This document shows, in pieces, positions 24,361-25,612 of a DNA stretch of 63,015 bases. Source of the DNA: a bacterium (lineage in GTDB: Bacteria; BMS3Abin14); contig JARGFZ010000002.1 of the NCBI GenBank assembly GCA_029210965.1, forward strand, positions 1-63,015, written 5' to 3'. The notes under the pieces are model-generated. The model ran no database searches, had not been told where the DNA came from, and worked only from the letters and a program-made list of their open reading frames with translations. Made by a program: the position numbers and the translations under genes. How positions within the stretch are numbered: position 1 is the stretch's first letter; each line of letters begins with the position of its first letter.

Positions 24361-24510
24361 TGATGACTTCGCAAAAAGTCATCAACGCGCCCCGAGGGGG
24401 GCGCCCGGATCAATGACTGTCGATATAAGCCATTGATCCGTGAGGAAAGTGAAAACCGCGCTTTTCACTTTCCGAGGAGCAAAAAGCCGATAACGGACTT
24501 TTTGCGACCC
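24361..24510 (-). repeat. copy 1 (inverted, diverged) of the ~160-bp structured repeat
   Basis: Opposite orientation to the other three copies. Keeps the outer stem pair (CGCAAAAAGTC near 24370; GACTTTTTGCG near 24497). Also the GC hairpin GCGCCCC/GGGGCGC, the stem GGATCAATG/CATTGATCC and the stem GGAAAGTGAAAA/TTTTCACTTTCC. The last two differ from the other copies by paired changes that preserve base pairing. Confidence 0.8.
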
Positions 24511-24606
24511 TGCCAAAGTTGTTCACAAGTGAATGGGTTTTCAACTTGTCAGGATATGAGAATAGGGAGAGGGAAGCAAGTGCGGAAGTAATGAGTGAAG
24601 TGCTGA

Positions 24607-24669
24607 AGTACCCAGTACCCAGTACCCAGTACCCAGGAGCCAGGAGTCAGCACACAGCACGCAGAATGG
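24607..24669. repeat. heptad array AGTACCC
   Basis: Nine 7-bp units in one register: AGTACCC four times, AGGAGCC, AGGAGTC, AGCACAC, AGCACGC, AGAATGG, in the gap before tRNA-Pro. The rest of 24511-24761 contains no gene I can support. Confidence 0.7.
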
Positions 24670-24761
24670 AAGGCGAAGTTTGTCTAAAAGCGGGAATAAT
24701 CAACTTATCGCAGCGCAATCGGCTGAAGGCTGTTACACGGGTTGACGTTTTTTGATTTTCC

Positions 24762-24859
24762 CAGACACTAGACCCTAGACACCGGACACTGTGTTTTAGA
24801 TTCCCTCTCTACACCCTGCACTCTACACTCTGGACTTTGGACTTTGGACTTTGGACCAG
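24762..24859. repeat. 14-unit heptad array
   Basis: Fourteen consecutive 7-bp units without a slip of register, drifting in sequence: CAGACAC, TAGACCC, TAGACAC, CGGACAC, ... GCACTCT, ACACTCT, GGACTTT three times. Downstream side of tRNA-Pro; a related array (TCTAGAC/ACTAGAC) lies on its upstream side at 25094-25128. Confidence 0.7.
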
Positions 24860-24866
24860 AAAACAT

Positions 24867-24892
24867 AAAAAAAGTCCGGCAGTAAGCCGGAC
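24867..24892 (-). terminator. intrinsic terminator of tRNA-Pro
   Basis: On the minus strand GTCCGGC-TTACT-GCCGGAC is followed directly by seven T residues, 12 bp after the tRNA CCA end. Textbook Rho-independent terminator. Confidence 0.85.
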
Positions 24893-24903
24893 CCTTTGTT
24901 TTC

Positions 24904-24980
24904 TGGTCGGGATGGCGAGATTTGAACTCGCGGCCTCATGGTCCCGAACCATGCGCGCTACCAAGCTGCGCCACATCCCG
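24904..24980 (-). tRNA. tRNA-Pro (anticodon CGG)
   Basis: 77 nt including an encoded CCA. Acceptor CGGGATG pairs with CATCCCG. The anticodon stem CATGG/CCATG encloses loop TTCGGGA, giving anticodon CGG (reads CCG). The T-arm GAGTTCAAATCTC is canonical. Promoter and terminator flank it closely, so it is a single-gene unit. Confidence 0.96.
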
Positions 24981-24986
24981 GAAGTT

Positions 24987-25042
24987 GCGTATTATAAACA
25001 CCAAACTATAAAAGTCAAAAATTTCCGGTGTTTATAATACGC
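24987..25042. promoter_or_regulatory. tRNA-Pro promoter inside a perfect 16-bp inverted repeat
   Basis: Minus-strand promoter: -35 TTGACT (25013-25018), 16-bp spacer, -10 TATAAT (24991-24996), about 10 bp before the tRNA. GCGTATTATAAACACC at 24987-25002 is repeated as its exact reverse complement at 25027-25042, so the -10 hexamer is also present facing the other way. The -35 sits in the 24-bp loop. Confidence 0.75.
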
Positions 25043-25043
25043 T

Positions 25044-25128
25044 GTGTCTGGATTCTGTTGTCTGGTGTCTGGCGCTACAAGCCCTTTGCTTTTTCTAGAC
25101 TCTAGAAGCTAGACACTAGACACTTTTC
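25044..25128. repeat. two heptad arrays upstream of tRNA-Pro
   Basis: 25044-25078: GTGTCTG, GATTCTG, TTGTCTG, GTGTCTG. 25094-25128: TCTAGAC, TCTAGAA, GCTAGAC, ACTAGAC. The units are partly complementary (GTCTNG versus CTAGAC). Confidence 0.6.
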
Positions 25129-25145
25129 AAGTTGCCCTTCATGAG

Positions 25146-25168
25146 GACGCCCCGCTTAACGGGGCGCC
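25146..25168 (-). terminator. GC-rich hairpin after atpC
   Basis: Minus-strand GGCGCCCCG-TTAA-GCGGGGCG hairpin about 30 bp beyond the atpC stop, without a strong T-tract (TCCTC follows). Likely 3' end of the atp operon. A partial heptad array (25175-25195) lies between. Confidence 0.5.
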
Positions 25169-25195: not shown

Positions 25196-25612
25196 TTATT
25201 TTTTCCCTGCAACTTGAACACGTATTATCGCCTTCTCCAGTCTCACCTTGGCCTCCTCGTACTCAGTGTCTTCCTTGCCTGAGGTGAGGATCTTCTCGGC
25301 TGCCTCCCGGGCGGTCTGGGCCCGGCTCAGGTCGATCTCGGTGGCCTTTTCAGCTGTTTCGGCCAGGACCTTGACGTTATCACTTGTAACTTCGACATAT
25401 CCCCACGAAACGGCCAGATGCTCTTCGGCATTGCCTTTTTTATAGGTGAGCACCCCCACCTTCAGGGCCGTGAGAAAGGGAATGTGGCCGTGCAGGACAC
25501 CGAACTCGCCCTCTATCCCGGGCAGTACCACCTCGTCCACCTCTTCGGAAACAACGATCCTTTCAGGTGTGACGATCTCCAGTCTTATTTTATCTGTGCT
25601 TACATCTGCCAT
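25196..25612 (-). CDS. atpC: ATP synthase F1 epsilon subunit
   Basis: 138 aa. N-terminal beta-sandwich (IRLEIVTPERIVVSEEVDEV ..., PGIEGEFGVLHGHIPFLTAL) and a C-terminal two-helix domain (about 90-135). It links gamma to the c-ring and can inhibit ATP hydrolysis. Last gene of the operon, 13 bp after atpD. Confidence 0.96.
   Translation of the reverse strand: MADVSTDKIRLEIVTPERIVVSEEVDEVVLPGIEGEFGVLHGHIPFLTALKVGVLTYKKGNAEEHLAVSWGYVEVTSDNVKVLAETAEKATEIDLSRAQTAREAAEKILTSGKEDTEYEEAKVRLEKAIIRVQVAGKK

Follow-up and report, generated by a model that had tools for sequence, protein, structure and literature searches.

A bacterial tRNA-Pro(CGG) promoter carries its -10 region a second time, exactly inverted, upstream of the -35

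The tRNA-Pro(CGG) promoter of a BMS3Abin14 bacterium is built into a perfect 16-bp inverted repeat, in which one arm holds the -10 region and the other arm, upstream of the -35, is its exact inverted copy. The repeat was studied within the window, the whole stretch of 63,015 nucleotides from contig JARGFZ010000002.1 (assembly GCA_029210965.1). This promoter anatomy is real, locally conserved and unusual. The explanation that is tentatively favoured here, with somewhat less than even confidence, is that of an ordinary strong sigma70-type promoter in which template switching during replication produced the upstream arm as a copy of the -10 region; the arm was then retained, perhaps as an UP element.

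Anatomy of the Promoter and Its Repeat

The promoter is of the sigma70 type and is read on the minus strand, with TTGACT and TATAAT separated by a 16-nt spacer and a match to 11 of the 12 consensus positions. The inverted repeat overlaps the -10 of this strong promoter, and its arms (24987-25002 and 25027-25042) are complementary at 16/16 positions around a loop of 24 nt. The -35 is located in the loop, as TTGACT occupies 25018-25013 of the minus strand, between the two arms. An earlier note, made from the letters of the sequence, had described a 16-bp sequence containing TATAAT, repeated exactly in inverted form with the -35 in the loop, and this description was borne out at every pair. The features of the region are given in Table 1, together with three other repeats in tRNA promoters of the genus. 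The gene upstream of the tRNA, on the same strand, is presumably ATP synthase epsilon-like (atpC), as both its translation and its location within an ATP synthase gene cluster suggest.

Table 1. Features around the tRNA-Pro(CGG) promoter (positions in the window) and comparable repeats at other tRNA promoters
Feature	Position	Strand	Details
Intrinsic terminator-like hairpin 3' of tRNA-Pro(CGG)	24869..24897	-	
tRNA-Pro, anticodon CGG	24904..24980	-	Rfam tRNA, 67.5 bits
Downstream arm	24987..25002	-	holds the -10 region of the tRNA promoter
-10 hexamer of the tRNA-Pro promoter	24991..24996	-	TATAAT
Loop separating the arms	25003..25026	.	24 nt, holds the -35
-35 hexamer of the tRNA-Pro promoter	25013..25018	-	TTGACT
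Upstream arm	25027..25042	+	inverts the -10 arm exactly; occupies the UP-element position, -44 to -59
Mirror TATAAT	25033..25038	+	without a -35
Terminator-like hairpin separating atpC from the tRNA promoter	25148..25166	.	
ATP synthase epsilon-like gene (atpC, presumed)	25196..25612	-	upstream of tRNA-Pro(CGG), same strand
tRNA-His repeat (L053, L106)			14 bp, loop 64 in G000; 22/23, loop 38 in G002
tRNA-Ala(CGC) repeat (L048, L111)			12 bp in G000; 11/12 in G002; loop 16 in both
tRNA-Met(CAT) repeat (L089, L114)			14 bp, loop 36 in G002; 12/13, loop 46 in G001

The length of the repeat exceeds chance. Arms of at least 16 with a loop of 12-70 were absent from 60 dinucleotide shuffles of the window, where the longest arm was 15, and the longest arm in 2000 shuffles of the local 350 bp was 12. 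When the 56 nt are folded as single-stranded DNA, the z-score is -7.7 and none of the shuffles (0/200) folds as well.

Two further repeats are found close by. A 12-bp perfect repeat (24854-24865 and 24897-24908) flanks the terminator of the tRNA-Pro gene, one of its arms including the 3' end of the tRNA, and a similar repeat occurs in another genome, G006 (L004). On the other side, a 10-bp inverted copy of the atpC 3' end flanks the hairpin that follows atpC (window 25126-25135 and 25209-25218); its counterpart in the congener G001 is 14 bp long (L011, 1340-1434).

Conservation in Relatives

The genome of the window (G000) was compared with two congeners (G001 and G002), with a sister genus (G004) and with further members of the class, for which 12 genomes were examined, 10 of them matching the tRNA query. 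In G002 the site of the repeat falls in an N gap, located after the start of atpC, so that G001 is the sole informative congener besides the window. The G001 locus consists of GGTATTATAAGCACC, 25 nt and GGTGCTTATAATACC, which together form a 15-bp perfect repeat. Between G000 and G001, 13 pairs are unchanged and two have changed on both sides (C-G/G-C and A-T/G-C), while the outermost of the 16 pairs is unmatched in G001. Over the same comparison, the loop is identical at 12/24 positions and the stretch from atpC to the repeat at 90/152. Since G001 keeps the mirror with matched changes, the symmetry points to copying in replication or to selection, and not to chance.

In the sister genus the repeat is imperfect, with 10/16 pairs. 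The unmatched pairs are 1, 3, 4, 6 and 7, in the outer half, and 12; one G004 pair is G-T, and C-A mismatches lie in the same arm. The difference is mainly in the outer part of the upstream arm, and it is not proven that the G004 state is ancestral rather than decayed. The repeat is absent in G003, G005, G006, G007 and G009, though these have a TTGAC...TATAAT promoter, and no such promoter was recognised before tRNA-Pro in G008 and G010. The earlier note had looked to relatives for conservation of the second arm: the congener has it, compensated changes included, but it is imperfect in the sister genus and missing from five family members. Sliding the partner arm by one to three columns lowers the pairing from 90% to 27-46%. 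A shuffle control of the pair count, which is weak with three sequences only, gave 70/500 shuffles as high.

A TTGACTTTT...TATAAT promoter is kept upstream of tRNA-Pro across the family (L003, L004, L006, L007, L009, L010), at a distance from the tRNA that varies from about 10 to more than 100 nt.

Re-matching of arms was also followed in 8 further long-loop repeats whose loops are at most 0.75 identical in G000/G001 alignments. In 6/8, between 1 and 5 pairs are broken, and the remaining two have 5 and 10 gapped pairs, so that re-matching is not general, and the proposal that all repeats are re-matched is not supported in G000/G001. In the alignment used for this test, one outer tRNA-Pro pair counts as broken and one or two as gapped, a discrepancy that is resolved by the end-anchored comparison. 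The tRNA-Pro repeat stands out as unusually well kept, and this exceptional preservation fits locus-specific selection at least as well as template switching.

Other Inverted Repeats in the Genus

Perfect repeats with an arm of at least 10 and a loop of 12-70 were counted in non-coding DNA, defined as all DNA outside ORFs of at least 100 aa and tRNAs. The counts were 22 in 31.4 kb (G000), 18 in 13.2 kb (G001) and 15 in 11.9 kb (G002) for the genus, and 1 in 6.8 kb (G004), 4 in 12.0 kb (G003) and 6 in 19.5 kb (G058) for the comparison genomes. Long-loop repeats are thus 2- to 9-fold denser in the non-coding DNA of the genus than in the three comparison genomes. Upstream regions of tRNAs contain a long-loop repeat with a score of at least 10 in 10/90 cases in the three congeners vs 1/82 in G004, G003 and G058, a count that took 30/36 (G003) and 30/45 (G058) tRNA matches as loci, dropped regions shorter than 60 nt or containing over 5 N, and included the contig-cut tRNA-Pro of G001 by hand.

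An excess specific to promoters, over other non-coding DNA, is not clear in G000, G001 and G002. Upstream of tRNAs there are 5 repeats in 3.8 kb, 0 in 2.2 kb and 5 in 1.9 kb, respectively, and other non-coding DNA has 0.60, 1.75 and 1.45 per kb; in G001 the tRNA-Pro gene is cut by a contig end and was not called by ARAGORN, which places its repeat under other non-coding DNA. Inverted repeats are described as abundant around tRNA regions in bacteria generally (PMC10434271).

Three other tRNA promoters of the genus have repeats of this kind (Table 1). In tRNA-His, one arm lies before or at the -35 and the other in the leader, where G002 has an extra tract matching the -35-side arm and G000 is without this tract. 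The arms of tRNA-Ala(CGC) are located in the spacer and the leader, the G001 version being more mismatched, and one arm of tRNA-Met(CAT) lies in the spacer between the -35 and the -10. Matched changes between species are seen in part of these His, Ala(CGC) and Met(CAT) repeats. As the tRNA-promoter repeats differ in both sequence and register, a repeat-making process is favoured over a single regulator. It could be that, throughout the genus, template switching writes inverted copies of the core promoter into the UP or leader regions of tRNAs and keeps re-matching them, with tRNA-Pro(CGG), -His, -Ala(CGC) and -Met(CAT) as independent instances, although a process of such breadth is considered decidedly unlikely.

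The intergenic DNA contains further repeated elements. Adjacent hairpins form arrays, such as GGAAAGTGAAAA-CCGCGC-TTTTCACTTTCC, that recur between genes in several genera of the family. These REP-like arrays are found at window 24410-24560 and in L059, L118, L147 and L149, and their arms vary between copies yet remain complementary. Degenerate short repeats of the type TAGACACTAGACAC, GGACTTTGGACTTT and CCCAGTACCCAGTACC fill the intergenic DNA at window 24600-24860 and 25044-25125, and other members of the family have similar ones upstream of their tRNAs.

Role of the Upstream Arm

The distal site of an UP element is placed at -58 to -45 in PMC2613000. Numbered from the -35, the upstream arm extends from -44 to -59 and covers this position. 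The A+T fraction there is 0.67 in G000, 0.61 in G001 and 0.11-0.67 in six other relatives with a promoter call. If the upstream arm acts at all, it would most likely do so as an A+T-rich UP element for the C-terminal domain of the RNA polymerase alpha subunit; it is the position and the A+T content that suggest this putative role.

A second role had been proposed in the earlier note, whereby the promoter of a lone tRNA-Pro(CGG) gene would be hidden or exposed and the decoding of CCG codons limited. The gene is the only one of its kind in the window, but not in the genome, where tRNA-Pro(TGG) and tRNA-Pro(GGG) are also present and tRNA-Pro(CGG) is one of three. The tRNA-Pro(TGG) normally reads CCG as well. 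This codon is used freely, accounting for 203/729 proline codons in 46 long non-overlapping ORFs of the window, and is not rare. The proposed limit on decoding is therefore weak: with two other tRNA-Pro genes present, a decoding brake is unlikely, and no sign was seen of control of translation by the repeat.

Proposed Origin and Alternative Explanations

Template switching is presented as an established means of perfecting quasipalindromes in E. coli in PMC7202029, and two further papers indicate that it can create compensatory pairs (PMC8794818; PMC8604942). In the proposed course of events, a short complementarity (about TAAGCACC / GGTGYTTA) would already have spanned the -35. Replication template switching, in the form of quasipalindrome correction, would next have used the -10 arm, which is under selection, as its template and transferred the outer half of it to the upstream arm, where constraint is lower. 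The arms would have been re-matched at least once since, between G000 and G001, and the copied arm may help the promoter as a putative UP element. Support for copying comes from the clustering of the G004 mismatches in the outer half, while 16 pairs in G000 and 15 in G001 are matched.

The main rival is that the symmetry itself is selected, with a dimeric protein or a cruciform using both arms to regulate the tRNA promoter. The two compensated changes, which kept the arms while the loop and flank diverged, are what such selection would leave, and of the long-loop repeats examined, the one at tRNA-Pro is the best preserved. Regulation of this kind, which the earlier note had suggested, gained no positive support when the 12 genomes of the class were searched for the motif of the arms: one tRNA-Pro site was found each in G000 and G001, none elsewhere, and a second site in no genome. 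As the motif occurs once per genome, in 2/12 genomes, an operator shared across the genus by a dimeric regulator is unlikely. The absence of the repeat from five other family members that have the promoter also speaks against selected symmetry, as does the place of tRNA-Pro(CGG) among three tRNA-Pro genes. Loops of 24-25 nt are generally poor for cruciform extrusion, which is expected to be slow with a 24-nt loop. Selected symmetry, though the main rival, is rather unlikely. Chance, or a plain neutral remnant without a continuing process or function, would accord with the many inverted repeats in the non-coding DNA of the genus, but it is quite improbable, given arms of a length unreached in the 60 window shuffles and the matched changes in G001.

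The remaining explanations assign the arms to RNA or to a second promoter. Transcripts reading through from the ATP synthase genes could fold the arms before the tRNA and so affect its maturation or stability. Such a hairpin is possible because the strand folds well: the minus strand, tRNA included, folds with the arms paired; atpC is located upstream on the same strand, and one G004 pair is G-T. This is nevertheless improbable, since a terminator-like hairpin separates the repeat from atpC, the RNA from the tRNA's own promoter is without the upstream arm and most of the downstream arm, and C-A mismatches occur in the same arm of G004. The earlier note had also described two opposed -10 boxes, and a second, perfect TATAAT does exist on the plus strand, from which a transcript towards atpC could start as part of a divergent pair. 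This mirror box has no -35-like hexamer at 16-18 nt, no promoter was called on the plus strand, and there is no fitting gene. In the bidirectional promoters tested in PMC12825309, start sites are 10-23 bp apart, within or on either side of a shared -10, whereas the -10 hexamers here are separated by 36 bp. The upstream arm is not a second promoter, and a divergent promoter pair is extremely improbable.

Relation to Known Systems and Significance

The favoured origin by template switching has its closest parallel in quasipalindrome correction of the E. coli thyA hotspot type, which it resembles in the perfect arms, the matched changes and the clustering of differences against the imperfect version of a relative. 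It differs from the thyA type in its loop of 24-25 nt, in having the -10 of a live promoter as one arm, and in that no pedigree has captured an event. The A+T-rich block at -44 to -59 is similar to the UP elements of rRNA and tRNA promoters, lying where the alpha C-terminal domains of E. coli bind, but in this case it repeats the -10 region exactly, in inverted form. Two opposed TATAAT boxes are also a property of the E. coli bidirectional promoters with a shared symmetric -10, unlike which the boxes here are unshared. The hairpin promoters of the phage N4 virion RNA polymerase likewise contain an inverted repeat; these are small hairpins read by a phage polymerase, and nothing of the kind was seen here. 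Among the matches listed in searches of open-licence papers, none describes -10 boxes mirrored in front of tRNA genes.

When two arms change in step, this is usually taken to prove a functional hairpin. As the RNA of this promoter does not hold both arms, the case helps to separate selection for pairing from copying in replication. It would also show, provided that the copied arm serves as an UP element, how a single mutation can give a promoter an upstream activating site. Should the genus-wide process also be true, the arms of tRNA promoters would evolve in concert, and promoters would have a way of generating their own upstream activating elements by mutation.
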